From NCBI GenBank assembly GCA_003133815.1, contig PKZR01000270.1:2569-35072 (forward strand): a stretch of 32,504 nucleotides of DNA. The letters are read 5' to 3'. Both the position numbers and the translations under genes were made by a program. The notes beneath the pieces are model-generated. The model had not been told where the DNA came from and made no database searches. It saw only the letters and a list, made by a program, of their open reading frames with translations. The DNA comes from Limisphaerales bacterium. GTDB lineage: Bacteria; Verrucomicrobiota; Verrucomicrobiia; Limisphaerales; UBA11358. Positions 533 to 32,504 of the stretch are shown here, piece by piece. Position 1 is the stretch's first letter. Each line of letters opens with the position of its first letter.

Positions 533-1030
533 CTAGCTTTTACGTGAGCAAAGTTTCTCCAATTCAGTTGTCCATTTTCGGCAGAACCAAAGCGGAATAA
601 AACCAAATATGCCAAATGAACAATCTATCAGTCGCCACCAAATCGGGATTCCGCGCAGACCGCCGAACACAAACGCATACGGCATCACCAGAACACAGGC
701 GATCAAACCGAAGTCAAAAAGCCAGCGGTTGCGGACTGGGTCGCGCAATGCACCGATGAAGACAATCGCGATGACAAAATGCCCGAACGCCAGCCAGTCC
801 GTGCCGTAGAAAAGAAACGAATGTTCCGCCTGCGTCTGCGCCAGCGCATCGCGAATCCGCAAAAACCAGCGCGCCATTTCGGATGATCCGCCATTTGACC
901 CGGAAAATTTCACTAGCAGATTCAATTCGCCTTGCAGCGGAATCGCCGTCACACCGCTGATAAACAAGCCTATGATGAACAGCCATGTCAGCAGTTTGAT
1001 CCGATGTCGCAAGCTTTGTTCACGCTTCAT
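533..1030 (-). CDS. uncharacterised small membrane protein
   Basis: A 165-residue protein with a basic N-terminus (MKREQSLRHRIK) followed by about four hydrophobic segments near residues 12-32, 78-95, 105-122 and 130-150. A polar stretch with FSGSNGGSS lies between the first two. It ends in a charged tail. I do not recognise a named family or any catalytic motif. It lies 43 bp downstream of another membrane protein gene and 35 bp upstream of the sigma-factor gene, all in one direction, so co-transcription is plausible. The coding call rests on the clear membrane topology in this frame, the close spacing with neighbours, and the lack of a competing credible ORF. No Shine-Dalgarno site is evident. 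A role in sensing for the adjacent sigma factor would be speculation. Confidence 0.75.
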   Translation of the reverse strand: MKREQSLRHRIKLLTWLFIIGLFISGVTAIPLQGELNLLVKFSGSNGGSSEMARWFLRIRDALAQTQAEHSFLFYGTDWLAFGHFVIAIVFIGALRDPVRNRWLFDFGLIACVLVMPYAFVFGGLRGIPIWWRLIDCSFGIFGFIPLWFCRKWTTELEKLCSRKS

Positions 1031-1073
1031 GTGCGAATTATTCTAGGCTTGGTTTTTCAAATTTTGCACGGTT

Positions 1074-1847
1074 CTATTCACGCGATTTCAATTTTGTTTC
1101 GCTGTCATGCAAATTCAAACAATCACCCCAGTGCGCGAGAAAGAATTTTTTCTCCGTCGGGAAAAACGTGTCCGCCGTCCCGAGAATCGGCCTCAGCGCC
1201 GTCGTCATCTGTACCGCGACGAGCAGAAAAATGACGACCCATGTGTGGAAACCCGCGTGCGACCGGGCGTTCGATTGCGAAAATCCGGCCTCCAAAAATC
1301 GCAGTCCGAAAATTGTCGCGATAAACCAGAAAATCAGATGCAGCGCGCCCATCCACGCGAGCGATTCCGTGGATTGCGAAAAAATCCACGCGACCGGCGC
1401 GAAGCCGATGAGCAGCATCGTCGTCAACATCAGCATCCCGGCGAGCAATCCAAAAATTTCGGAGAGCCGTGCGTGCGAACCGCTCAAACATGTGAAAATG
1501 TAAAGGCTAGGAAGACAGATGAGCGCGGATATCATCAGGCCTGCGGCGATTTTTACGGGCGCGATCCATAGCTGCTGCCCGCCGGAAAATGTTCCGACAA
1601 CCACTCCATAAATTAGGCTGCACACGATTGAAATGAACAGCATCGCCGCAATCAATTTTCCCGCGCCCGGCTGCCGCAGTTGAAACATCATCCGTCGCGG
1701 ATGACGCAGAAGGGCTTCAATCACGGCGATGATGTTCGGAATCGCGACGCGCTCCAGCGGGTCGTCGCCAAGCTGGCGCACGCCACTTGAAAGAATCGAC
1801 GGAATTACCGGCGGGATTTGCGGTGGGACTGGATTTTGTTCGTTCAT
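1074..1847 (-). CDS. multi-pass membrane protein, paralogue of the next gene upstream (Yip1-like topology)
   Basis: A 257-residue protein with a proline-rich cytosolic N-terminus of about 60 residues (NEQNPVPPQIPPVIPSI) and then about six membrane segments. The layout resembles Yip1-type bacterial membrane proteins, although I see no diagnostic signature. Landmarks are IYGVVVGTFSGGQQ near residue 90 and ALRPILGTADTFF near 225. The neighbour encoded at 1866-2588 shows matching landmarks at matching places (LYGAAMG plus QQ, and ILRPFIGSPD plus FF), so the two look like old tandem duplicates. The gap between them is 18 bp. Function is unknown. The start is the ATG at 1847; the long polar leader is retained because no better internal start is seen. 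Confidence 0.8.
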   Translation of the reverse strand: MNEQNPVPPQIPPVIPSILSSGVRQLGDDPLERVAIPNIIAVIEALLRHPRRMMFQLRQPGAGKLIAAMLFISIVCSLIYGVVVGTFSGGQQLWIAPVKIAAGLMISALICLPSLYIFTCLSGSHARLSEIFGLLAGMLMLTTMLLIGFAPVAWIFSQSTESLAWMGALHLIFWFIATIFGLRFLEAGFSQSNARSHAGFHTWVVIFLLVAVQMTTALRPILGTADTFFPTEKKFFLAHWGDCLNLHDSETKLKSRE

Positions 1848-1865
1848 AGGTCAATGAGTTTTGGT

Positions 1866-2588
1866 TTAGTTGTTGAAAATTTGTTGAAGCGATTGAAAGA
1901 CATTTTCATAAAAATTTCCTTGTAGCGCGGACGCGCGGAAAAATTCCACCGGAAGGTCAGGCGAACCGATGAATGGCCGCAGAATCCACGAAAGCTGGCT
2001 GCCCAGAAATAAATTTCCCGCCAGCCACGCAAACAGGACGCGAAGCGCAACCGCCCTGCTTCCGCCGAGCCGCGCGAGCAGTTGAAACAGCCGGACATTT
2101 CCAGTCATACCTGCGAACGCAATGACAACGACGTTGATGAGTTTGATAAGATTGTAAGTTGAGCCGGAAATGGTTTGCGGCGAAATCGGCGGCGCGTTCC
2201 AAATCATAAAAGCGAGCAGCGGGCTGAACGCGCCCAGAATCGCCGCCGCAATGGTGAAGCTCATCACGATCGCGGAGAACGACTGGCGGAACGGGATGTT
2301 TAGGCCGAGCAGCGGTGCGAACATGGCATTAATGAGCGAGTTGCCGATGGTCGTCAATAAAATGATGAGCGGAAATTTGATCGCGACATAAAGCGCCTGC
2401 TGCGGATCGCGCCACCAACCCATCGCCGCGCCGTAAAGTCCCGCGCCAAAAATGATGACGGTGACGTGCAGCAGAAATCTGCGCGCGTTCCAGGATTCGC
2501 TCCACATGGAAATCGTTCCCGTTTCACCGCGCAGGAGCGTGGCTATTTCAGCCGGATGGGTCTTTAATTTTGCGGATGGTGCGGGCAT
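1866..2588 (-). CDS. multi-pass membrane protein, paralogue of the next gene downstream
   Basis: A 240-residue protein with a soluble N-terminal stretch of about 35 residues and about six hydrophobic segments. It contains LYGAAMGWWRDPQQ near residue 50 and WILRPFIGSP near residue 205, both echoed in the downstream gene product. A segment rich in small residues (FTIAAAILGAFSPLLAF) sits mid-protein. Its ATG shares one base with the stop codon of the gene upstream (TAATG), an arrangement typical of translational coupling. The family is not one I can name and no enzyme motif is visible. It belongs to the same minus-strand run as ispH. Confidence 0.8.
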   Translation of the reverse strand: MPAPSAKLKTHPAEIATLLRGETGTISMWSESWNARRFLLHVTVIIFGAGLYGAAMGWWRDPQQALYVAIKFPLIILLTTIGNSLINAMFAPLLGLNIPFRQSFSAIVMSFTIAAAILGAFSPLLAFMIWNAPPISPQTISGSTYNLIKLINVVVIAFAGMTGNVRLFQLLARLGGSRAVALRVLFAWLAGNLFLGSQLSWILRPFIGSPDLPVEFFRASALQGNFYENVFQSLQQIFNN

Positions 2589-3304
2589 TAAAATTCTGCA
2601 GATTGTTTGGTGATTTCAGATTTTACGCGAGATCGCAGCAAAAATTCCCGTCCGATTTGCAGCACCGGCGCGGACATCAACGCCAATGCCGCGCAAAACA
2701 GCGGCCAGTTAAATCGGGCGGGCAGCATGGACCGAATCGCATCCAAATTGTGATGCGCGGCGGCAATGGAATCCGCCATGAAAACATAAAGCGCAAGCGC
2801 GACGCCGGTGAAATTTAATATCCACGCCCGCCAGCTTGACAGCATCGGGGTGTGTTTCCGTTCAAACTGGCAGGCGAACGTGCCCCATAAAATCAACAGC
2901 AGCGAAATCAAACCCGGTGCGAGCACCGGCCCCCACCACGGCAACGGCAGCAAAAATAGAACGTCCCAATCCAGCAACGAGTGCGGCCAGCCGCAAATGA
3001 TTTTCAGAAAGACATAATAAAAAACATCCCACACGCCAAACGCAATGACGGCGTAGCCGATTCGCGCCCGCCACGTCCGTCCCGCGAGAAAACCTACGGC
3101 AAACAGCATGACCAGCGTGGCCAGCTCGCGCGGCAGTTCCACCGAGGCAAATCCGCCGATGATGGGCAGCGGATCGGGTTGATATGGTTCGATGCGGTCA
3201 ATCATCGAGCGCAGATAAAACACCACCGCCGATTCCACCCATGCCATGGCGGCGGCGTAGATCACGACCATCCACCAGCGATGCCATTTAGATTTGAGTT
3301 TCAT
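2588..3304 (-). CDS. uncharacterised multi-pass membrane protein
   Basis: A 238-residue protein with about six membrane segments. Conserved-looking polar residues lie inside or beside membrane spans: AWVESAVVFYLRSM near residue 21 and ELPRELATLVMLFAVGF near 56. A tryptophan- and proline-rich loop (LLPLPWWGPVLAPG) lies near 122. Acidic and arginine residues within hydrophobic segments suggest a functional pocket, but I cannot assign one. The start overlaps the upstream stop by four bases (ATGA), and the stop overlaps the next start by one base, so it is in the middle of a translationally coupled chain. I recognise it only as a conserved hypothetical type. Confidence 0.8.
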   Translation of the reverse strand: MKLKSKWHRWWMVVIYAAAMAWVESAVVFYLRSMIDRIEPYQPDPLPIIGGFASVELPRELATLVMLFAVGFLAGRTWRARIGYAVIAFGVWDVFYYVFLKIICGWPHSLLDWDVLFLLPLPWWGPVLAPGLISLLLILWGTFACQFERKHTPMLSSWRAWILNFTGVALALYVFMADSIAAAHHNLDAIRSMLPARFNWPLFCAALALMSAPVLQIGREFLLRSRVKSEITKQSAEF

Positions 3305-4218
3305 GTTTTTTGTTTGGTGGAGCTTTCAGTTTTACCTGCCGTTACGTTGATGAGCTTTGCCATGAGTTCCACGGGCTTGATGGCGAGGTAAGTGAAATCC
3401 GCCAGCCACGCCGACTTGATCTGGGTGGCGATCACCGGGCCAAGGCGGTTGTAGCCGCAGCGGAATATCCGGTGGCTGCGCGGCGCGCGATTTCGCCACA
3501 GATTTTCTAACTGCCAGAACGTGAGGAGCTGTTGATTTGCCATCCGCCTGCGACCTTTGTGTTCAATTTCAAAATGCGGGCCGACAATTTTCGCATGGCC
3601 GCGACCTGCCGCCGTGACTATGAAACAATCGGATGGGGGCTTGTCCGGCAGCGACGCATACAGGCTGCGCGACCACAGCCAGCTCACCAGCCAGAACGGC
3701 AGGGAACCAACCAGCGAAATGAAATTTGGCCAGAAGCTGAAACGGGAGGCCTTGATCAGTTGCGCGGCGCGAATCGAATACCATGCCGCAACATAAAATG
3801 GCACCAGCAGCCATAATTTGGGGACGTCTGCCTCGGATCCGAGGCACACCATGCCAAACAAGAAACAAATTGTGGCAACGATTGCTCCCAGAAAAAATCC
3901 GACGACAATCCAACGCGAGGTGCGATTTTCGACACGAAGGATTTCCAGCGCATACAAGGCTGCTGTCGCCAGCAGCACCAGCGGTGTCAGCGCCAGCTTC
4001 CCTGCGATAAAGCAGTCCAGCCAGCCGTAAGCGCACGCGCCCTTCCATTCCGGCTCCATGAAAGAACTCAATAAAAAAACGACCAATGGCACCACGACTC
4101 CTACAAACGACAGGATCAACGCGATGAACAAGCGGCGCCACGATTTTTCTTTCAACACCGGCGGCAAGGCCAGCGCTGATAAAATTCCGATGAGGAGAAT
4201 CCAAGGTGCAAGAATCAT
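3301..4218 (-). CDS. membrane protein with CFI-box-like C-terminal domain
   Basis: A 305-residue protein. About five hydrophobic segments fill residues 1-190. A soluble tail follows that begins CFIVTAAGRGHAKIVG near residue 198. That start, a later QLLTFWQLENLWRN, and a closing pattern like GYNRLGPVIATQIKS resemble the CFI-box C-terminal domain (CFIATAAYGS, then L..FRD..L, then YY..SP..A). The domain's function is not established. Here the box is variant: GRGH replaces the usual YGS. The gene overlaps the stop of ispH by four bases (ATGA) and also overlaps the next gene by four bases. The membrane layout is clear; the CFI-box relation is my recognition of a pattern and needs a profile search. 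Confidence 0.8.
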   Translation of the reverse strand: MILAPWILLIGILSALALPPVLKEKSWRRLFIALILSFVGVVVPLVVFLLSSFMEPEWKGACAYGWLDCFIAGKLALTPLVLLATAALYALEILRVENRTSRWIVVGFFLGAIVATICFLFGMVCLGSEADVPKLWLLVPFYVAAWYSIRAAQLIKASRFSFWPNFISLVGSLPFWLVSWLWSRSLYASLPDKPPSDCFIVTAAGRGHAKIVGPHFEIEHKGRRRMANQQLLTFWQLENLWRNRAPRSHRIFRCGYNRLGPVIATQIKSAWLADFTYLAIKPVELMAKLINVTAGKTESSTKQKT

Positions 4219-5084
4219 GCGAGAATTTGTTCAGGTCGCATCAAAGGCTTGTTTTGCAGGTTATTCAACCATTCGTTGACTTTTTGAATGACTTCGTCCG
4301 GCGTCGAAGTTCCCGCCGTTATGCCGACAACGTCATCGTCGCAAAACCATTCCACGCGTAGATCGTCCGCCATCTGGACGTGATGAACGCGCTGACAAAA
4401 TTGCGAACAGGTTTGCACCAATTCATGCGTGTTGTTGCTGTGCGCGCCACCAATGACAACCACCACATCGCACTTTTGCGCCAGTTCGACCGCTGCGCTT
4501 TGACGCTGCTTAGTCGGCTGGCAGACGGTGTCAATGAAGCACACCTCCGATTTCGGATAGCCCTCGCGGATCAATTGCACCAGCCGTCTGACTTTTTCAA
4601 TGGGTTGCGTGGTTTGTGAAATAATTCCAAAGCGCGAACGCTCCTGAAGTTTTGAAATATCTTCCTCGACCAGCACCACATCGAACTCAGCCAAATCTTC
4701 CGTCATGCCACGAACTTCAACATGATCGCGCTTGCCGATCACAACCGGGTGAAAACCTTCCTCCACAAGCTTCTTCAAACTGCGATGCGCAACGTGAACA
4801 AGTGGACACGTAGCCTCCAGCACGTTCAATCCGCGCCGACGCGTTTCTTTCAAAACGCGTTCGGACGCGCCGTGCGCCGTGACCATCACCGTTTGCGTTC
4901 CGACATTGGCAGATTGCCGCTCAAAGCGAATTCCCTTCGCACGCAATTCCGCCAGCACGGCTTCGTTGTGGACCAAATCGCCCAGAACCGTAAGCGGCTC
5001 GCGTTCCACCGACTCCAAAGCCAGGGCAATGGCATCCTTTACCCCAAAACACATTCCCAGATGTTCGGCGCGTATGATTTTCAT
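4215..5084 (-). CDS. ispH: 4-hydroxy-3-methylbut-2-enyl diphosphate reductase
   Basis: This is the last enzyme of the MEP pathway. It reductively dehydroxylates HMBPP to isopentenyl and dimethylallyl diphosphate using a [4Fe-4S] cluster in the cytosol. The three cluster cysteines are visible: GMCFGV (Cys12), EATCPLV (Cys93) and DTVCQPT (about 195). The substrate-binding residues His39 (GDLVHNE) and His71 (AHGAS) are also present, as is the GGAHSNNTHEL segment and the closing AGTSTPDEVI. At 289 residues it is slightly short for the family but complete. It heads a minus-strand run of membrane-protein genes, with a four-base overlap to the next. A perfect palindrome lies only four bases before the ATG, so transcription is probably repressible there; no Shine-Dalgarno site is visible in that space. 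Confidence 0.97.
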   Translation of the reverse strand: MKIIRAEHLGMCFGVKDAIALALESVEREPLTVLGDLVHNEAVLAELRAKGIRFERQSANVGTQTVMVTAHGASERVLKETRRRGLNVLEATCPLVHVAHRSLKKLVEEGFHPVVIGKRDHVEVRGMTEDLAEFDVVLVEEDISKLQERSRFGIISQTTQPIEKVRRLVQLIREGYPKSEVCFIDTVCQPTKQRQSAAVELAQKCDVVVVIGGAHSNNTHELVQTCSQFCQRVHHVQMADDLRVEWFCDDDVVGITAGTSTPDEVIQKVNEWLNNLQNKPLMRPEQILA

Positions 5085-23896: not shown

Positions 23897-24518
23897 CCGC
23901 TCGAAGGCCAAAAATGCCGCGATGCTCAACCTGCTGGCCACGCCAGGTCTCGGCTCGCTTTTGTGCGGTCGTTGGGTTGCTGGAACCGGACAACTTCTCT
24001 TTTCTGTCGCAGGTTTCACGTTCGTCATAGTGTGGTTTTTCAAGGAAATGATTCCGTATTACGGCATGATGTTCGATGAAGATACGCCGCATTTGCCCGG
24101 CATGAAAATGCTTGCGGCGGGCGGAAACTTGTTTGCCGTCTCGTGGCTCTGGTCGGCGGTGACGAGTTTCAGCTTGTTGCGAGAATCCTCGTCGGGCCGG
24201 TTGCGTTCGCTGGAAAATTCCGCCACGCCACCACAGTTGAAAATGGACGAGACAAAAATTTTCCTGGCACTCAGATCCGTTCCGAACTGGCAGAGAAAGG
24301 CCGACGTGATTTCCCGCACGTTTCAATTCAAGGATTTTCCCGCTGCGATGAAATTCGTGGATGCCGCCGCCCAGCTGGCCGAAGAGGAATGGCATCATCC
24401 CGACATAGACATCCGCTGGAACAAGGTGACGCTCGCGCTTACGACGCACGACGCGGACGGACTGACGGACAAAGATTTCGCACTCGCCAAAAAATTTGAC
24501 GAGATGTCATTTCGTTGA
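23862..24518 (+). CDS. membrane-anchored pterin-4a-carbinolamine dehydratase fusion
   Basis: A 218-residue protein with two parts. Residues 1-110 hold a basic leader and two to three membrane segments (LLATPGLGSLLCGRWVAGTG, then a FVIVWFF span and a LFAVSWLWSAVTSF span). Residues 125-218 match pterin-4a-carbinolamine dehydratase (PCD): FQFKDFPAAMKFVDAAAQLA, then WHHPDIDIRW with the catalytic histidine pair, and TTHDADGLTDKDFALAKKFD with the third histidine. PCD recycles tetrahydrobiopterin cofactor and, in bacteria, is also linked to molybdopterin proteins. Soluble PCD proteins are about 100 residues; the membrane half is extra. The start could be 23856, 23862 or 23922; 23862 is chosen as the first ATG giving a basic leader. 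It overlaps the upstream gene. Confidence 0.88.
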   Translation: MKQFSVNRKPVSRSKAKNAAMLNLLATPGLGSLLCGRWVAGTGQLLFSVAGFTFVIVWFFKEMIPYYGMMFDEDTPHLPGMKMLAAGGNLFAVSWLWSAVTSFSLLRESSSGRLRSLENSATPPQLKMDETKIFLALRSVPNWQRKADVISRTFQFKDFPAAMKFVDAAAQLAEEEWHHPDIDIRWNKVTLALTTHDADGLTDKDFALAKKFDEMSFR

Positions 24519-26051
24519 AGCCGGAGAATTTGTCACCGCTGATGCCGCGGGAATTTTCAGCGCAAGCGACGAGTTCGTTTGCGGCACGCGTCCGAGCCAG
24601 ACGCCGCTGACGCCGTAATACCAGTCAAGGCCCGGAATGTCGGGCTGCCCGGTTCCAACACCGCGGACGACAAGACGGTCTTGCGGACGCATTTTTCTAA
24701 CCCATGGCGCGTAAGCTTTCCCGTCTCCGTTATTCCACATCACGCTGTGATAGACATTGAAATCTTCCATGGGCATGAAAGTGGATTCAAAACCGAGAAT
24801 ATAACGCCAGTCACCGTCTGGATTCTTGTAAAAGGTCTGGTAGAAAAGAGTCATGTCCGCCGAATAAAAAATTCCACCCTTGTCCGGCATCCAGCCTTCA
24901 AGTTCGGGATGCTCCGCCACCGAAAGATATTGTGTCTTCAACGTCGAAGACCAGCGGCTGTTCACGTCATTGGTGGTGACAACATACGCCGTCAACGCCA
25001 GGCCGCAAACCAGACCGAAGCGTTTGAGGGAATCGGGAGCGAAACGCATTTCAAAAAACGACTGCAAGTCGCACGCCAACAAAACCATCAGCGCCGGCGC
25101 GCCCCAATCATCCCAAAAACGATCCGTCTCGCAGCCCATCACCCAGCCCAAAACGGCGAGCCACAACGCGGGATTGCGGTGCAACGGCGTTGCTTCAAAC
25201 TTTGCCAACTGCCGCAAGACAATCATTCCGCCGAGCAGAAGGACCATGAAAACGTCACCGCCGGAAGGTCGCAATTCCGTGACCAGCGTAGATTGCGTCT
25301 CATGCATTCCCATGGCGCGCAACGCCACCTGCAATGCCTCACAAATATATTCCACCGGATGGCCGGTAAGCGCCGCACCCAAAACCGTCGCCAGCATCCA
25401 GCTCAACGCAAGCATGAAGCACCAGCGGAATTGTTGCGCGATGAAAAACGCCGCGACCGGCAGCGCCCAAAGATACCAGACCCCGTGAAAAAATACCGCC
25501 AGGGTGATCAACGATGTCATCCACAAAACCGCCCGCCATTTCGGCGGCGACTGGCCGTGGCGTTGCCACATCAAAAGAATGACCATGAGCACCGCCATGC
25601 TCAATAAAAACGGGCGACCCAGACACAGCCGCGACAAGAGACCCGACGCCATTGAAACCAAAGCCAGCATTGCCAGCCACGCTTCCGGGCGTTTCAGGCA
25701 AGCCATTGCCGACCAGCTGATGAGAAGGAACAGTCCCACAACAGAAAACAGAACCAGTTTCTCGGCGTCACAGTTTGTCCATAGATGTATTTTCTCCAAT
25801 AACAGATTCCAGCCGAACTCGTGATCAATTTTGTAGACATCATTGAGCACGAGAATTTGCGACCAGGACTTTCCGCTCACCGCCTTCGCGGCATGGCGCA
25901 ATGCATCGTCAACCGGCAGATAACCATAGCCGATGATTTTAAAAGGAATCGCCAGGGCGACAAGAATGACAACCGCCCAGATGGAGAGCGGCACATAACG
26001 ACGAAGCGACTCCAGACCTGATGAATCGGATTTGTCATTGTCGTCGGCCAT
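24507..26051 (-). CDS. large polytopic membrane protein, GT-C-like layout
   Basis: A 514-residue protein from ATG 26051 (MADDNDKSDSSGLESLRRYV). It has about eleven membrane segments between residues 20 and 360 and a soluble C-terminal domain of about 150 residues. The first external loop carries paired acidic residues and a histidine (LPVDDALRHAAKAVSG, then DVYKIDHEFGWN). The layout, with an acidic first loop, many spans and a C-terminal periplasmic domain, resembles GT-C glycosyltransferases such as those using polyprenyl-linked sugars, but I cannot confirm a family. The C-terminal domain includes GIFYSADMTLFYQTFYKN and GLDWYYGVSGVWLGRV. It lies 11 bp after the metallo-hydrolase gene and overlaps the convergent PCD gene by 12 bp. 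Confidence 0.8.
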   Translation of the reverse strand: MADDNDKSDSSGLESLRRYVPLSIWAVVILVALAIPFKIIGYGYLPVDDALRHAAKAVSGKSWSQILVLNDVYKIDHEFGWNLLLEKIHLWTNCDAEKLVLFSVVGLFLLISWSAMACLKRPEAWLAMLALVSMASGLLSRLCLGRPFLLSMAVLMVILLMWQRHGQSPPKWRAVLWMTSLITLAVFFHGVWYLWALPVAAFFIAQQFRWCFMLALSWMLATVLGAALTGHPVEYICEALQVALRAMGMHETQSTLVTELRPSGGDVFMVLLLGGMIVLRQLAKFEATPLHRNPALWLAVLGWVMGCETDRFWDDWGAPALMVLLACDLQSFFEMRFAPDSLKRFGLVCGLALTAYVVTTNDVNSRWSSTLKTQYLSVAEHPELEGWMPDKGGIFYSADMTLFYQTFYKNPDGDWRYILGFESTFMPMEDFNVYHSVMWNNGDGKAYAPWVRKMRPQDRLVVRGVGTGQPDIPGLDWYYGVSGVWLGRVPQTNSSLALKIPAASAVTNSPASTK

Positions 26052-26062
26052 GCTGCGCGGAA

Positions 26063-26989
26063 TCAAAACACCTTCGGGACGCCCTCGTCGAGGATTTTTA
26101 TTTGCTCCGTAAGGTTTTCCCTCGTCGCGATTTCAGAAAGCCAGCGCGGCGGCTCGTCCATTTCCTCGAACGACAATTTGAAGGTTCCGTAGTGCATTGG
26201 AACAAAAAATTTCGCGCGCAAATCCTTGAACGCCTGCACCGCCTGGTCCGGGCCCATGTGAACTTTGCGAAAGGTCGCCGGATGGTATGCGCCGATGGGC
26301 AGCAGCGCGATCTCCGGTGCCAGCTTCCTGCCGATTTCCTTGAAGCCGTGGAAATATGCGCTGTCGCCGGCGTGATAAATTTTCCGGCCCTGATGTTCCA
26401 GCATGAATCCGCCATAGCCCCGATGACTGTCGCGCAATGTCCGTGCGCCCCAGTGTTTGCTTGGTGTGAACGTCACCTTCCAGTCGCCCTGCGAAAAGCT
26501 TTCCCACCATTCGAGCTCAATGATGCGGGAAAAGCCAAGGTTGCGCGCCAGGTCGCCGACCCCGCGCGGCATCACGCCGATTTTCGGATTCGGCAGTTTT
26601 CTCAAAGTCGGTTTGTGAAAATGATCGAAATGAGCGTGGGTCAGCAGAACGAGGTCAATCGGCGGTAAATCATTTATTTTCAGGCCGGCGCGTTTAAGGC
26701 GTTTCAACAGGAAAAGCCAGTTCGCAAAATTCGGGTCGATCAGCACGTTCAGGTCTGTGAACTGAATGAGAAACGATGCGTGTCCGATCCATGTGATGGC
26801 CACCTCGCCGTATTTCAATTTGGGGAAAACCGGGCGGCGCGGCTGGCCGTGGCGCGGTGTGAACCAGCCCTTCAAGATCAGCTCCTGAAAAAAAGTGCGC
26901 GGGTTGAAATGCTTCGCCGGCGTCAAATCCTTGAAGGAGCGCGGGAGTTTCCGGCGCGGCGCGGGACGGCTGGATTTTTCTTTCGTCAT
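26063..26989 (-). CDS. metallo-beta-lactamase-fold hydrolase, NAPE-PLD/UlaG-like
   Basis: A 308-residue protein from ATG 26989 (MTKEKSSRPAPRRKLPRSFK); the track start at 27067 runs into the divergent promoter region. The fold's zinc site is clear: LTHAHFDHFHKP (HxHxDH) near residue 115, HWGARTL near 182, GDSAYFHGF near 210, and the last histidine in VPMHYGTFKL near 265. The WIGHASFLIQ strand near 67 is typical of the UlaG/NAPE-hydrolysing phospholipase D group, which acts on phosphodiester or lactone substrates. It lacks a signal peptide, and its basic N-terminus could touch the membrane. It is probably co-transcribed with the large membrane protein gene 11 bp downstream; the substrate is unknown. 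Confidence 0.9.
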   Translation of the reverse strand: MTKEKSSRPAPRRKLPRSFKDLTPAKHFNPRTFFQELILKGWFTPRHGQPRRPVFPKLKYGEVAITWIGHASFLIQFTDLNVLIDPNFANWLFLLKRLKRAGLKINDLPPIDLVLLTHAHFDHFHKPTLRKLPNPKIGVMPRGVGDLARNLGFSRIIELEWWESFSQGDWKVTFTPSKHWGARTLRDSHRGYGGFMLEHQGRKIYHAGDSAYFHGFKEIGRKLAPEIALLPIGAYHPATFRKVHMGPDQAVQAFKDLRAKFFVPMHYGTFKLSFEEMDEPPRWLSEIATRENLTEQIKILDEGVPKVF

Positions 26990-27092: not shown

Positions 27093-27647
27093 GTGAACAA
27101 ACTCGCAAAGCAGCTTGATCGGTTTCTCCGCCAGCCGCCGAAGCTCGGTAAAAATGTTTTCATCGCCAAAACTGCCACTGTCATCGGCGATGTCACACTC
27201 GGCGCGCATTCCAGCGTGTGGTATGGCGCGGTGCTTCGCGGCGACATCAACCGCATCGTCGTCGGCCACCACTCGAATATCCAGGACAATGCCGTGCTGC
27301 ACCTCGCGGACGATTTTCCGTGTCTCCTTGGCAACTGGGTCACCATTGGCCACGGCGCGATCGTCCACGCATGCAAAATCGGTGATGAATGTCTTGTCGG
27401 CATGGGCGCGGTGATTTTGGACGGAGCTGTCATCGGCAAACAATCCATCATCGGCGCGAAGGCGCTGGTAACGCAGGGAGTGAAAATTCCGCCCGGCTCG
27501 CTAGTACTCGGCGCGCCGGCGAAAGTGGTTCGCAAGCTAACCATGAAAGAGCGCGCCGGCCTGAAATGGTGGGCGCAAAAATACGTGGACAATGGAGCTT
27601 ACTGCTTGAAACACAAAATCAGCCACCCTGATTCGTGCAAAGATTGA
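27093..27647 (+). CDS. gamma-carbonic anhydrase-like hexapeptide protein
   Basis: A 184-residue left-handed beta-helix protein of the YrdA/CaiE/PaaY branch of gamma-class carbonic anhydrases. Hexapeptide repeats begin at NVFIAKTATVIGDVTLGAHS and run to VTQGVKIPPGSLVLGAPAKV, followed by a C-terminal helix with WWAQKYVDN. The three zinc histidines are visible in AVLHLAD and TIGHGAIVHAC. The protein forms trimers with the metal at subunit interfaces. Some members hydrate CO2, others have no measured activity, so catalysis is open. It is divergent from the metallo-hydrolase gene and about 40 bp ahead of the fatty-acid-like operon, though not clearly part of it. Confidence 0.92.
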   Translation: MNKLAKQLDRFLRQPPKLGKNVFIAKTATVIGDVTLGAHSSVWYGAVLRGDINRIVVGHHSNIQDNAVLHLADDFPCLLGNWVTIGHGAIVHACKIGDECLVGMGAVILDGAVIGKQSIIGAKALVTQGVKIPPGSLVLGAPAKVVRKLTMKERAGLKWWAQKYVDNGAYCLKHKISHPDSCKD

Positions 27648-27688: not shown

Positions 27689-28447
27689 ATGGCCGGTTCA
27701 CTTTCAGGAAAAATTGCGTTTGTCACGGGCGGTGCGCGTGGCATTGGTCGCGCCGTCGCGTTGAAACTCGCCACCGCGGGCTGTGACGTGGCCATCGCCT
27801 ATCACAACAGCCATGAAGAAGCCGAGGCCGTCTGCAATTCAATCCGCGCGCTGGGCCGACGCGCGCTTGCCACGCAGGCGGACGTAAGCGATCCCGCCAG
27901 CGTAGCCGAGGCGTTCGCCGAATTTCGCAAAGAATTTGATCGCGTTGACATCGTCATCAGCAACGCCGCCATCGGCGTGCTCAAACCGGCGATGGAGCTT
28001 TCGCTCAAACATTTCCGACGCTGCATGGAAACCAACGCGCTTGCGCTGAATTCGCTCGCTCAAAACGCCGTGCCGATGATGCCGGAAGGCGGCTGCCTCA
28101 TTGGGCTTTCGAGCCTGGGCTCGGTGCGCGCCATTCCACACTACGCATTCATCGGCGCATCGAAGGCCGCGCTGGAATCGCTCGCCCGCGGGCTTGCACA
28201 AGAGCTCGGCCACGCAAAAAGAATACGTGTCAACATCGTCAGCGCCGGAATCGTTGACACCGACGCGCTGAAATTTTTCCCGAACCGGGAACAATTGCTC
28301 GCCGAATACGCACGCCGCACGCCAATCGGCCCGACGCTTACGACAGAACAGGTCGCTGACGCGGTCTATTTGCTTTGCCTGCCGGAAGCAGCGATGATTA
28401 CCGGCCATACGCTCGTTGTGGACGGTGGCTACTGCATTTCAGGATGA
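27689..28447 (+). CDS. FabL-type enoyl-ACP reductase (SDR)
   Basis: A 252-residue SDR with TGGARGIGRAVALKL at the NAD(P)-binding loop and the SNAAIG segment. The catalytic Tyr152 and Lys159 are six residues apart (YAFIGASK), the spacing of enoyl-ACP reductases, unlike the three of ordinary SDRs such as FabG. The following VSAGIVDTDALKFFPNREQL closely resembles Bacillus FabL, where Tyr151 and Lys158 are catalytic. It would reduce the enoyl-ACP double bond, the last step of an elongation cycle. A good Shine-Dalgarno (GGAG at 27677) precedes the ATG. The stop overlaps the next start (ATGA). It heads the operon. Function as FabL is inferred from this motif match. Confidence 0.85.
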   Translation: MAGSLSGKIAFVTGGARGIGRAVALKLATAGCDVAIAYHNSHEEAEAVCNSIRALGRRALATQADVSDPASVAEAFAEFRKEFDRVDIVISNAAIGVLKPAMELSLKHFRRCMETNALALNSLAQNAVPMMPEGGCLIGLSSLGSVRAIPHYAFIGASKAALESLARGLAQELGHAKRIRVNIVSAGIVDTDALKFFPNREQLLAEYARRTPIGPTLTTEQVADAVYLLCLPEAAMITGHTLVVDGGYCISG

Positions 28448-29208
28448 ACGAACCCAAAATTATTGACTCCGGTTTGTCCGGCGGAATTGCCATCGTCACC
28501 GGCGGCAGCCGTGGCATCGGCCGCGCCATCGTCGAAATCCTTGCCGCGTCGGGAATGGAAGTCATTTTTACTTTTCGAGACAACTCGGCGGCGGCAAATG
28601 AAGTCATCGCCGCAAATCCAGGCAAAAAAATTTCCGCGGAGCAGGTGGACGCCCGCGATTCCGCCGCATGTGCCGCTTTCGCGGAAAAAATCATCGATCG
28701 TACGGAGAAAATCGACCTTCTCGTCAACAACGCAGGCGTCATCCGTGATAATTTGCTGGCGATGCTCGACGACGACGACATCAAGGCCGTCCTGGACACC
28801 AACGTGACCGGCACTTTCAACATGACGCGCGCCGTCGCGCCGTATATGATTTCCAAACGTCGCGGCAAAATCGTGAACATCAGTTCCGTCTCCGGCGAGA
28901 AGGGCGGACGGGGCCAGACGAATTATGCGGCGAGCAAAGGCGCGATCAACGCCTTAACGAAGGCGCTCGCCGTCGAACTAGCGCCGCGCGGCATCACGGT
29001 CAATGCCGTAGCGCCGGGCGTCATCGAGACCGAAATGTCGCGCACCGTACGCGAGCTGGCGGGTGACCAGATTCAGTCGCGGATTTTGTTGAAGCGAATC
29101 GGCAAACCGGAAGACATCGCAAATGCAGTCTGGTTTTTAAGTTCGAAATTCGCCGATTACATAACGGGCGAAATATTGCATGTGGATGGCGGATTCAAGA
29201 TGGAGTGA
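28444..29208 (+). CDS. fabG: 3-oxoacyl-ACP reductase FabG
   Basis: A 254-residue classical SDR starting at ATG 28444 (MNEPKIIDSGLSGGIAIVTG); the track start at 28375 is inside the upstream gene. It has TGGSRGIGRA, NNAGV, the catalytic triad ISSVSG with Tyr161 and Lys165 (NYAASK), and PGVIETEMS. The end LHVDGGFKME is standard for FabG. It would reduce beta-ketoacyl-ACP to the 3-hydroxy form using NADPH. Overlap with the upstream stop (ATGA) and a four-base gap to the ACP gene show a single transcription unit. It is likely dedicated to this cluster rather than the housekeeping copy, because it is flanked by a non-standard ACP and ketosynthases. Confidence 0.93.
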   Translation: MNEPKIIDSGLSGGIAIVTGGSRGIGRAIVEILAASGMEVIFTFRDNSAAANEVIAANPGKKISAEQVDARDSAACAAFAEKIIDRTEKIDLLVNNAGVIRDNLLAMLDDDDIKAVLDTNVTGTFNMTRAVAPYMISKRRGKIVNISSVSGEKGGRGQTNYAASKGAINALTKALAVELAPRGITVNAVAPGVIETEMSRTVRELAGDQIQSRILLKRIGKPEDIANAVWFLSSKFADYITGEILHVDGGFKME

Positions 29209-29212
29209 AATT

Positions 29213-29656
29213 ATGAGCAACGAAAACATCACAAAAGAAGAGATCGCAACCATTTTTCCAAAAGTGGCGGAGACGATGGCTGACGCGCTCGGCTGCGACA
29301 AAGAAAAGGTGAAGCTCGACGCGTCGCTGATCGGCGACCTCGGCGCGGAATCCATTGACTTCCTCGACATCATCTTCCGCCTCGAACGAGCTTTCAAAGT
29401 GAAAATCCCGCGCGGCAAAATCGTGGAGGAAGCGCGCGGCCAGCTTTCTGAATCCGAATTCGAGAAGGGCGGAGTGGTGACCGACGCGGGCGTGGCGCGG
29501 CTGAAATCCTTTTTGAGCGAAGTTCCGCCGGAACGTTTCAAAACCCCGTTGAAGTCGGCTGAGATTCCCAAGCTGTTCACCACCGAGACATTTTGCAAAA
29601 TGGTGATCCGTCAACAGCGCGCAACGGCGGCGGACGGCGGCGCAAAGCCGGCTTGA
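29213..29656 (+). CDS. acyl carrier protein with C-terminal extension
   Basis: A 147-residue protein from ATG 29213 (MSNENITKEEIATIFPKVAE), preceded by GGAG at about 29202. Residues 1-85 are an ACP fold: the phosphopantetheine serine is Ser47 in LGAESIDFLDIIF (the usual DSL replaced by ESI). About 60 further residues follow, longer than the 75-90 residue standard ACP, with the segment SEIPKLFTTETFCKM-like (actual AEIPKLFTTETFCKM) near 125. Such an extension may dock to the cluster enzymes, but I know no characterised match. The 3' end overlaps a possible TTG start of the dehydratase gene. Confidence 0.9.
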   Translation: MSNENITKEEIATIFPKVAETMADALGCDKEKVKLDASLIGDLGAESIDFLDIIFRLERAFKVKIPRGKIVEEARGQLSESEFEKGGVVTDAGVARLKSFLSEVPPERFKTPLKSAEIPKLFTTETFCKMVIRQQRATAADGGAKPA

Positions 29657-29670
29657 GCGGACTGACCGGC

Positions 29671-30510
29671 ATGGACGGACATTTTAACGCATTCACTTTT
29701 GTGAATCGCATCACCGAGCTCCAGCCGGGCGGCTCGGTTCTCGGAAGCTATCTAATCCCGCCTCACATCGACGCTTTTCCCCAATCGCTGGCGGCGGAAG
29801 CGCTCGGGCAACTTGCCGCGTGGGCGGCAATGTCAATCGTTGATTTCAAATTCAGGCCGCTCGCCGGGATTGCCGGGCTGGTGGAACTTCTCTCGCCTGT
29901 CCGGCCGGGACAAATGCTGAACCTGTCTGTCGAACTCGAAAGCGTGGACAACGAAGCGACTGCCTATCGCGGCATCGCGAGCGCAGACGGAATTCCTGTG
30001 ATTCGCCTGCAAAATTGTGTCGGCCCCATGTTGCCCGTTGAGGAATTCGACGAGCCGCAGACGTTGCGACAGCATTTCGCCGTGCTGCGAAACGGCGGAT
30101 CGACACCCGGCGGTTTTGGCGGAATTCCTCCGCTCGAGTTTGCGCGCACCGGCGGCGAACCGGGACAGTCTGTTCGCGCCACGCTGGAAATCCCCATGTC
30201 CGCCCCTTTTTTCGCCGATCATTTTCCGCGCCGCCCGGTTTTTCCAGGAGCGCTGCTGATGAATCTGAACATCCAGCTTGCCGCCGTGTTCGCCGCTGAA
30301 ATTCCCGCGCCTGGTGGAGGTCGTTGGGATTTGCGGACGATTTCCGATTTGAAACTGCGCGCATTCATTCCACCCGGCGAAAAATTGGACCTTGAAGCAA
30401 GGCTCGCCAGCCGCATGGAAAATTCCGCAACGATTATCGTGGAAACGCGCAAGGAAAAAAAACTTGTCGGCAGCGCGCGTGTAACGCTCAAGACGGAGGG
30501 AAGCCCATGA
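29671..30510 (+). CDS. FabZ/FabA-like double-hotdog 3-hydroxyacyl-ACP dehydratase
   Basis: A 279-residue protein with two hotdog-like halves. The C-terminal half has the FabZ motif FADHFPRRPVFPGALLMNLN with catalytic His184, but the acidic residue normally following PGxL (as in PGVLMVEAMAQ) is replaced by Asn. The N-terminal half has DAFPQSLAAEALGQLAAW with Glu43 aligned to that missing acid, but no clear HFP. Together they could form one active site, as His and Glu come from opposite subunits in FabZ dimers. The start is ATG 29671; a TTG at 29653 overlapping the ACP stop is an alternative. The stop overlaps the next start (ATGA). It likely dehydrates 3-hydroxyacyl-ACP for this cluster. Confidence 0.85.
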   Translation: MDGHFNAFTFVNRITELQPGGSVLGSYLIPPHIDAFPQSLAAEALGQLAAWAAMSIVDFKFRPLAGIAGLVELLSPVRPGQMLNLSVELESVDNEATAYRGIASADGIPVIRLQNCVGPMLPVEEFDEPQTLRQHFAVLRNGGSTPGGFGGIPPLEFARTGGEPGQSVRATLEIPMSAPFFADHFPRRPVFPGALLMNLNIQLAAVFAAEIPAPGGGRWDLRTISDLKLRAFIPPGEKLDLEARLASRMENSATIIVETRKEKKLVGSARVTLKTEGSP

Positions 30511-31805
30511 CGCCGCGCCGGAGAATCGCCATTACGGGCATCGGCATGGTGACGCCGGTCGGGAACGATGCGCGCACGACTTGGGCGAATTTGCAAGCCG
30601 GACGCAGCGGCCTCGACACGATCCGTCATTTTGATGCAAGCGATTTTCCCGTCCGCATCGGCGCGGCAGTGAAAAACTTTGACGCGGCTGCCGTCATCGG
30701 CAACTCAAAACTTCTCAAGCTCGCCACGCGTGCGAACCGGTTTGCCCTCGCTGCGGCGGAAGAAGCGCTTGCAGATGCAGGAATCCGTCCGACATTATCC
30801 GATGCCCACCGCTGGGGGTTTTGCGTCGGCGCTGGAATGATGGGGCAGGATTTTCGAGAACTGGAAGTTGTCCAAAAATTCTGCGCACCGGACGGTGAGT
30901 TTCAACCGGACGGATTTCTAGCGGACAATTTTCCCGCCGACCCCGTTGCATTTTGCCGCAGCCAGACCAATTCCGGCCTCGCGCTGCTCACGCGCCACTT
31001 TGGGATTCGCGGGTACGCCACGGCTGTTCACACCGCCTGCGCTTCCGGGGGACAAGCTCTCGGCACCGCCCTTAAGGTGATGCGGCGCGGGCATGCTGAT
31101 TTCATGCTGGCCGGCGGTTTCGATTCCATGCTCAACCCGATTGGCATCGCCGCATTTTGCCTGTTGGGTGCGTTGTCCACCGACAACAACGCTCCCGAAC
31201 GCGCGAGCCGCCCGTTCGACGCCACGCGCAATGGCTTTGTCATGGGCGAGGGCGCGGGATTTTTGGTCTTGGAAAATTGGGATTCCGCCCGCAAACGCGG
31301 CGCCAACATTTACGCCGAACTGGCCGGCGACGGAAATTCATTGAGCTGCTATCGCATCACCGATTCGCCGCCGGACGGCGACGGCCCGATTCAGGCTATA
31401 AGACAGGCGCTGGCCGACGCGGGGATTTCACCAGAATCTGTGGATTATGTGAACGCCCATGGAACTTCGACTTTAATGAACGACAAAAGTGAATGCGCCG
31501 CGTTGCGCGTCGTCATGGGAAATCACATCGACCGCGTCGCGGTAAGTTCGACCAAGAGCTGCATGGGACATTTGATAGCGGCGGCGGGCGCGGTTGAGGC
31601 CGCCGTGTGTGCGCTCGCCATCCGCGATGGAATCGCTCCGGTTAATGCAAATTATTTGCTACCTGACCCTGACTGCAACGTGAACATCGTGCGCGAAAAA
31701 TCGCAGCCAATGAAAATCCGCGCCGCGCTCTCAAATTCACTCGGCTTCGGCGGCTCGAACAGTTCGCTCGCCTTCCGTCACCCCGACGAGGTTCCGGACG
31801 CATGA
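30507..31805 (+). CDS. beta-ketoacyl-ACP synthase (FabF-like)
   Basis: A 432-residue thiolase-fold condensing enzyme. The Cys-His-His set is complete: Cys178 (HTACASGGQ), His318 (NAHGTSTLMND) and His355 (SSTKSCMGHLIAAAG). The GFVMGEGAGFLVLE and closing ALSNSLGFGGSNSSLAF segments are typical FabF-type. It would extend acyl-ACP with malonyl-ACP by decarboxylative Claisen condensation. A Shine-Dalgarno (GGAGG) lies a few bases before the ATG. The gene overlaps the dehydratase gene and the second ketosynthase gene by four bases each. Having all three catalytic residues it is an active synthase, not a chain-length factor. Confidence 0.95.
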   Translation: MTPRRRIAITGIGMVTPVGNDARTTWANLQAGRSGLDTIRHFDASDFPVRIGAAVKNFDAAAVIGNSKLLKLATRANRFALAAAEEALADAGIRPTLSDAHRWGFCVGAGMMGQDFRELEVVQKFCAPDGEFQPDGFLADNFPADPVAFCRSQTNSGLALLTRHFGIRGYATAVHTACASGGQALGTALKVMRRGHADFMLAGGFDSMLNPIGIAAFCLLGALSTDNNAPERASRPFDATRNGFVMGEGAGFLVLENWDSARKRGANIYAELAGDGNSLSCYRITDSPPDGDGPIQAIRQALADAGISPESVDYVNAHGTSTLMNDKSECAALRVVMGNHIDRVAVSSTKSCMGHLIAAAGAVEAAVCALAIRDGIAPVNANYLLPDPDCNVNIVREKSQPMKIRAALSNSLGFGGSNSSLAFRHPDEVPDA

Positions 31806-32504
31806 ACTCTCCGCGAAAAATTTTAATCACGGGCCTCGGCGCTGTTTGCGGCGCCGGTTTGAAGATTGACACCATCTGGGACGCCATCGTTAATGGCAAA
31901 TCCTCCATCAAGGAAATCAGCGGTTGGGACGCGGGTCGCTGGCCGGTGCGCGTGGCGGCGGAGGTCACGGGTGTGGACAACCGCACGCTTGTCGAGGACC
32001 GCAAGCTGCACAAAATGATTTCCAAGACCGATTTGTTCGGCCTCTACGCGGCGGACACGGCGATCCGTCAATCCGGCCTGCCGGCCCATCGCGAAACGCT
32101 CGACCCGGACGCGACAATTCATTTCAACGACCGCAGCGGCGTTTTCGCCGGCTCCGGCGGCGGAAATTACGGGTGCAATTACGATTTCTTTCCGGCAATG
32201 GCGGCGGCTGGCGGCGACCTGAAAAAATTCGGCGCGGAATTCACCGAATCCGTCAACCCGATGTGGTTGTTGAGAAATCTACCAAACAACGTGCTGTGCC
32301 ACGTTGGCATCCGGCACAATTTCAAAGGCACGAATGCCTGCATCACAAACCATTGCGCAGGCGGCGCGATGGCGGTCGCCGAAGCAGCAGCAGCCGTCCG
32401 TGCGGGCGAGGCCGACCGGGCCGTCGCCGTCGGGCATGATTCTCCATTTGAACCGGAGACGCTGTTTCATTATCACCGCCTTGGACTGTTGTCGCCGGAA
32501 ATCG
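31802..32504 (+). CDS. second beta-ketoacyl synthase, 3' end cut by window edge
   Basis: The gene is missing from the ORF track because it runs off the right edge. From ATG 31802 it reads MNSPRKILITGLGAVCGAGL and stays open for 234 codons to the window end. It shares the ketosynthase start pattern (ITGLG-VxxxG) and a segment NACITNHCAGGAMAVAEAAA with Cys185 at the position of the active-site cysteine (usual TACATG). The surrounding sequence (TNHCAGG) differs from the typical TAC motif, so substrate range may be unusual. The histidines lie beyond the window. Whether it is a full synthase or a chain-length-factor-like partner of the preceding ketosynthase cannot be settled, though the retained cysteine favours a synthase. 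Confidence 0.9.
   Translation, partial: MNSPRKILITGLGAVCGAGLKIDTIWDAIVNGKSSIKEISGWDAGRWPVRVAAEVTGVDNRTLVEDRKLHKMISKTDLFGLYAADTAIRQSGLPAHRETLDPDATIHFNDRSGVFAGSGGGNYGCNYDFFPAMAAAGGDLKKFGAEFTESVNPMWLLRNLPNNVLCHVGIRHNFKGTNACITNHCAGGAMAVAEAAAAVRAGEADRAVAVGHDSPFEPETLFHYHRLGLLSPEI

Follow-up and report, generated by a model that had tools for sequence, protein, structure and literature searches.

A seven-gene operon across a contig junction

The stretch of DNA analysed here (the window, 32,504 nucleotides in full length) corresponds to bases 2,569-35,072 of the 35,072-bp contig C78 (PKZR01000270.1) in the genome assembly of a Limisphaerales bacterium from the phylum Verrucomicrobiota, and its right-hand end carries an operon of type II fatty acid synthesis (FAS II) genes that we interpret as a putative dedicated cassette for building and transferring an acyl chain. 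Six plus-strand genes of the operon are present in the window, their starts having been corrected by comparison with homologues. As an earlier note on this sequence had described, the genes are tightly packed. At the junctions they share 4 bp or lie 4-14 bp from one another. The right edge of the window is at the same time the end of the contig, and the last gene is cut there. The components of the operon are as follows.

27689..28447, plus strand: ER, enoyl-acyl carrier protein (ACP) reductase, a short-chain dehydrogenase/reductase (SDR) of the FabL type, 252 amino acids (aa), with Yx6K (PRK08063 profile and motif)
28444..29208, plus strand: KR, 3-oxoacyl-ACP reductase FabG, with Yx3K (TIGR01830, PRK12826.1-2); 4-bp overlap with the ER stop
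29213..29656, plus strand: ACP, dedicated acyl carrier protein, 147 aa (PP-binding match)
29671..30510, plus strand: DH, double-hotdog 3-hydroxyacyl-ACP dehydratase, 279 aa (FabA-like and FabZ profiles, AlphaFold2 model)
30507..31805, plus strand: KS1, ketosynthase 1, FabF type, with the full Cys-His-Lys-His tetrad (TIGR03150 fabF)
31802..32504, plus strand: KS2, ketosynthase 2, divergent, cut by the contig end; its C-terminal part lies at C420:1-600 (locus L028)
32483..32504, no strand: exact 22-bp match to the first bases of contig C420 (sequence identity)
C420:600-1805, same strand as KS2: AcpS-LpxL fusion, 401 aa (PF01648, 35 bits; PF03279, 131 bits)

Contig C420, on which the operon continues, came to light when a complete KS2 and a relative's downstream gene were used as queries against the genome. 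The last 22 bases of the window are identical to the first 22 bases of C420, and the first 600 bases of that contig encode the remainder of KS2, a C-terminal part that matches the same homologue as the first half does. Directly behind it, its ATG (C420:600) overlapping the KS2 stop codon by a single base, lies a gene for a holo-ACP synthase (AcpS) joined to an acyltransferase of the LpxL/HtrB type; the search to the right for an acyltransferase proposed in the earlier note was thus rewarded. Because a convergent PEP-CTERM gene follows on C420, the operon ends here. It therefore comprises seven genes and is complete in this genome across the junction of C78 and C420. Neither fabD nor fabH is in view among the operon genes in the window, and fabD, fabH and plsX are all missing from the whole operon and from C420. 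The earlier note had set against its own reading a sole fab locus with plsX, fabD and fabH just downstream; what follows KS2 is the AcpS-LpxL gene and then the convergent PEP-CTERM gene. A recent foreign origin of the operon was considered and dropped, as its composition gives no sign of one: the GC content at third codon positions is 0.62-0.71 in the operon genes versus 0.64-0.70 in their neighbours.

Predicted enzymes and their active sites

The gene identities proposed from the sequence alone in the earlier note (a FabL-type enoyl reductase, FabG, an extended ACP, a double-hotdog dehydratase and two ketosynthases) agree with profile searches, with the Yx6K motif and with structure modelling, and together the proteins, whose active sites are intact, are predicted to make up a full elongation cycle. 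The best NCBIfam match of ER is to FabL (PRK08063), its score of 318.5 bits lying just below the cut-off of 328. Like Bacillus-type FabL, ER is an SDR with Yx6K, differing in that it is encoded inside a dedicated operon and in the score just given. The Yx6K motif, typical of enoyl reductases, occurs in all eight ER sequences compared, and the protein is 71-91% identical among relatives of the operon. The presence of an enoyl reductase argues for a saturated product, as had been supposed before. KR matches TIGR01830 with an E-value of 8e-79, scores above the cut-off of PRK12826.1-2 and bears Yx3K.

The ACP is recognised by the PP-binding profile (E 2.4e-9), and its attachment serine lies within GAESIDFLDI. 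The protein is extended to 147 aa, with a C-terminal extension conserved across 18 homologues or loci. Its best PDB match is the specialised ACP of entry 2kw2, and it reaches 45.3 bits against PRK06508 (cut-off 83), which we take to be the AcpXL model. The structure model of the ACP was poor (predicted local distance difference test score, pLDDT, 61.8) and was left unused. DH matches both the FabA-like (E 3.4e-12) and the FabZ (PRK00006, E 1.7e-17) profiles and was modelled by AlphaFold2 as a double hotdog with a pLDDT of 90.2. Two of its residues are invariant in the 16 sequences compared, namely E43 in the N-terminal hotdog and H184 in the C-terminal one, the latter being the FabZ-type histidine within DHFPR. 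Since the active site of FabZ is shared between subunits, we infer that the glutamate and the histidine of DH form a single composite site. A fold search with the DH model returned generic double-hotdog matches only (thioesterases, a FAS DH model) at root-mean-square deviations of 9-14 Å, and no function was gained from it.

Both ketosynthases retain the catalytic tetrad Cys-His-Lys-His, KS1 in 17 sequences and KS2 in 16 of 16. KS1 scores 440 bits against the fabF model TIGR03150 (cut-off 494). KS2 departs from the usual pattern in its nucleophile elbow, which reads TN[H/Q]C versus the common TAC, and it forms a long branch in the ketosynthase tree. In one relative (L025, at about 2552-2561), KS2 lacks some 36 residues (query positions 113-148 are skipped), which is either a deletion or an assembly fault. 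As for the fusion protein, its LpxL domain keeps the H-x4-E motif within GHFGNWE, and its AcpS domain keeps the Asp and KEA motifs.

The operon recurs as a unit, predominantly in Verrucomicrobiota

When bacteria and archaea were scanned with one genome for each species, 16 relatives of KS2 emerged, sharing 53-74% identity in the part that aligned; they come from 15 metagenome-assembled genomes (MAGs) of Verrucomicrobiota and one labelled as Methylomirabilota. Independent loci show the same gene order, with proteins about 46-91% identical, and given this recurrence the arrangement is far beyond chance. Wherever the contigs cover it (several loci are truncated by contig ends), the order ER-KR-ACP-DH-KS1-KS2-LpxL and the common strand are kept. 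The full block, AcpS included, is present end to end in ten loci, nearly all of them from Verrucomicrobiota: L012, L013, L016, L022 and L027, and L065, L066, L067, L068 and L070, the latter five coming from a survey at the level of the order. In that survey KS2 was found in 17 of 320 genomes (this genome counted) and in 10 of 118 genera, so that the cassette is absent from about 95% of the genomes of the order. In an even draw across the phylum (388 genomes), KS2 occurred only in this genome. When plasmids were searched by tblastn with KS2, the fusion protein and DH, no close relative was met: the best match to KS2 was 33% identical, and neither the fusion nor a full-length DH was found.

KS1 and KS2 each form one clade, and the groups within the two clades broadly match, as is expected of a unit inherited together. 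The copy in L016 stands out in that its MAG is labelled Candidatus Methylomirabilota and its sequences are nested among verrucomicrobial ones in the ketosynthase trees; the GC content of the cluster is 0.71, versus 0.65-0.67 in the flanks. Either an inter-phylum transfer or a mis-binned contig would account for this copy.

A system separate from housekeeping fatty acid synthesis

The earlier note had taken the operon for a dedicated, non-housekeeping system and had suggested a search for a separate housekeeping fab cluster. Such a cluster does exist: fabD, fabG, an ordinary ACP gene and fabF lie together on contig C324, and contig C277 encodes LpxC with FabZ in a single open frame. That the operon itself serves housekeeping fatty acid synthesis, or is a spare copy for it, is consequently very unlikely in our judgement. 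All its enzyme types are those of FAS II and KS1 is nearest to ordinary FabF, but besides the separate loci just named, the absence of the cassette from most genomes of the order, its private ACP and its terminal acyltransferase all speak against such a role.

The likeness to aryl polyene and ladderane pathways that had been put forward in the earlier note did not hold up. Clusters for aryl polyenes of the E. coli CFT073 type do recall the operon in having their own ketosynthase pair, KR, DH, ACP, phosphopantetheinyl transferase (PPTase) and an LpxL-type acyltransferase, a member of the lysophospholipid acyltransferase family. However, they also contain a chain-length factor (CLF), an AMP-ligase, a thioesterase, a glycosyltransferase and an MMPL exporter, none of which is present in the operon, and LolA is likewise missing from it; neither AMP-ligase nor MMPL/LolA export genes occur in the block conserved among the relatives. 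Reading the ketosynthase pair as a ketosynthase with its CLF was rejected, as KS2 keeps all four catalytic residues in every homologue. The conserved enoyl reductase, an addition with respect to those clusters, would moreover remove the double bonds. Another gene set in the same genome fits that role: contigs C421 (L034) and C449 (L009) together encode a halogenase-like flavoprotein, an MMPL-LpxL fusion (1117 aa, an MMPL exporter with an LpxL-type acyltransferase attached), a DH, a methyltransferase, an AMP-ligase, a glycosyltransferase, a ketosynthase, a CLF-like protein and a radical SAM protein, the radical SAM gene on C449 adjoining those for the ketosynthase and for the CLF-like protein devoid of the active-site Cys. 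These genes make up an aryl-polyene/flexirubin-like set and may or may not represent one locus. We thus consider synthesis of an aryl polyene or a related conjugated pigment by the operon very improbable.

A pathway of the ladderane or polyunsaturated-hydrocarbon type is the least credible of the alternatives. The occurrence of more than one divergent FabF paralogue in a single cluster does resemble the FAS II clusters of anammox bacteria and Desulfotalea, in which FabF-like genes are duplicated, but the hallmarks of the latter are genes of the radical SAM and phytoene-desaturase-like types, along with ketosynthase paralogues whose active sites have been lost (PMC2649909). Neither of these two gene types occurs in the operon or its flanks, either here or in the loci of the relatives, and the sites of both ketosynthases are intact.

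The rhizobial acpXL-lpxXL cluster is the closest analogue

In its anatomy the operon comes closest to the rhizobial cluster acpXL-fabZXL-fabF2XL-fabF1XL-adhXL-lpxXL, which is established to make a very-long-chain acyl group and attach it to lipid A (PMC5613085). Common to both are a private ACP, an own DH, two genes of the ketosynthase family, a reductase and a terminal acyltransferase of the LpxL family, and the relative order ACP-DH-KS-KS-reductase-LpxXL of the Sinorhizobium meliloti cluster (proteins from record CP090106) runs parallel to that of the operon. With the family profile of the operon ACP, S. meliloti AcpXL scored best among the references (59 bits versus 38 for AcpP); an approximate AcpXL sequence was employed solely as bait in a search of plasmids. 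Similarly, S. meliloti LpxXL is the best match of the operon LpxL among the references (69 bits).

The differences are nonetheless considerable. S. meliloti FabF2XL has a degenerate E-S-G-H in place of the tetrad kept by the operon KS2; KS1 scores higher with housekeeping FabF (374 bits) than with FabF1XL (280 bits); the rhizobial zinc dehydrogenase is replaced by an SDR enoyl reductase and FabG; and, unlike in the rhizobial cluster, DH is a 279-aa double hotdog and AcpS is fused to LpxL. Given the lack of a degenerate ketosynthase, the different reductases, the separate lineage of LpxL and the fact that the operon proteins miss the NCBIfam equivalog cut-offs of the rhizobial system, the operon, judged by its sequences, is not a member of the rhizobial very-long-chain fatty acid (VLCFA) system. 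The product that characterises the VLCFA system is a C26-C28 hydroxyacyl group on lipid A. In open-licence papers we encountered nothing on point concerning Verrucomicrobia with AcpXL, VLCFA-bearing lipid A or clusters of this kind, nor any account of the operon itself.

Genes upstream of the operon and the case for a different lipid

27093..27647, plus strand: gamma-carbonic-anhydrase-like hexapeptide protein (PF00132; NF050158, 185 bits, cut-off 250)

The hexapeptide gene lies 41 bp upstream of the operon, in an arrangement shared only with L012, L013 and L014. Its product probably stands outside the pathway, for most other copies of the operon lack this gene beside them. Further away in the window, a membrane-protein-like open reading frame of 519 aa (24507-26066, minus strand) has no Pfam match at 0.001, and a tightly packed run of minus-strand genes (533-5084) comprises four without a Pfam match, followed by those for a DUF6688 protein and LytB/IspH.

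In several relatives the operon is preceded by a trio of genes encoding a condensation-domain (Cond) protein (PF00668, E 1e-11), a lipoprotein with weak similarity to alpha/beta-hydrolases (lipoABH) and a PEMT/ICMT-like methyltransferase (PEMT, E 1.6e-10). The full trio is present in L012, L014, L065, L066 and L070; L013 has the Cond gene only, and L068 has the lipoABH and PEMT-like genes and then the contig ends. The lipoABH gene is duplicated in L066 and L068. Since the window and L012, L013 and L014 have the same upstream hexapeptide gene, they represent the same chromosomal site, and most simply the lineage of the window would have lost the trio.

This neighbourhood lends some weight to the idea that the acyl chain made by the operon, saturated or hydroxylated, is destined for an envelope lipid other than lipid A or for a wax-like ester, and that the upstream trio finishes or transfers it, in the manner of the PapA5-type enzymes that act on mycobacterial wax lipids. 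The Cond gene of six loci and the lipoABH-PEMT pair of six (all those named above bar L068 and L013, respectively), together with the profile matches of their products, are in keeping with it, and so is the best PDB match of the LpxL domain, a phosphatidylinositol mannoside (PIM) acyltransferase. However, the trio is absent beside the operon in the window and at several other loci, and a search across this genome found no homologue of the Cond protein, which means that the trio is not required; the acyltransferase that is invariant is the LpxL domain. We therefore regard a different lipid as a less probable destination, albeit one that deserves more credit than the other alternatives.

A putative route to a special acyl tail of the envelope

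The interpretation we prefer, with a rough probability of 55%, is that the operon is a dedicated, self-contained type II cassette for the synthesis and transfer of a saturated acyl chain, working like rhizobial acpXL/lpxXL and most likely serving a lipid A-type acceptor. As regards the primer, chain length, acceptor and partnership of the ACP, we infer the following scheme from the gene set. Arming of the private ACP would fall to the AcpS domain of the fusion or to a housekeeping PPTase (two further genes of the PPTase family occur in the genome). KS1 and KS2 would then use malonyl units to extend an acyl primer taken over from housekeeping FAS, the malonyl transfer being presumably a housekeeping one because the operon is without fabD. 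Each new beta-keto unit would be reduced to a saturated chain by FabG, the double-hotdog DH and the FabL-type ER, and the completed acyl group would finally be handed over by the LpxL-family domain, leaving the ACP for a hydroxyl group on an envelope lipid. The presence of LpxC in the genome implies that at least the first part of lipid A synthesis is available. An ordinary, stand-alone LpxL was looked for in this genome and not detected, which is weak evidence as the assembly is only 82% complete; its absence could reflect MAG incompleteness or replacement by the operon LpxL.

Several observations weigh against a lipid A-directed cassette. LpxL-family enzymes also acylate other lipids, as exemplified by the PIM acyltransferase, and the operon LpxL belongs to a lineage separate both from the usual verrucomicrobial LpxL and from S. 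meliloti LpxXL. Most relatives possess LpxL-family genes outside any cassette, and no cassette, and lipid A therefore does not depend on the cassette. L014, L017, L018 and L072 have no AcpS domain and encode LpxL alone downstream of KS2, the fusion having been lost, or not yet gained, in these lineages. Finally, the sequence does not fix the length of the chain.

More tentatively, the operon may represent an undescribed verrucomicrobial lineage of envelope-lipid acylation, with a complete private FAS II cycle, a carrier-arming enzyme fused to the acyltransferase and a new type of catalytic ketosynthase (KS2 with TN[H/Q]C), a lineage whose origin is independent of the rhizobial VLCFA system and which gives rise to a chemically new tail of lipid A or a lipid A-like molecule. 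If the preferred interpretation is true, the cassette would be a second, independently assembled route to a special envelope acyl tail, encoded by a compact set of genes that lends itself to expression in another host, and its natural AcpS-acyltransferase fusion would couple carrier activation to chain transfer. KS2 would then represent a ketosynthase family with a changed nucleophile elbow, and the operon would mark those verrucomicrobial genomes whose owners are worth a lipid analysis.

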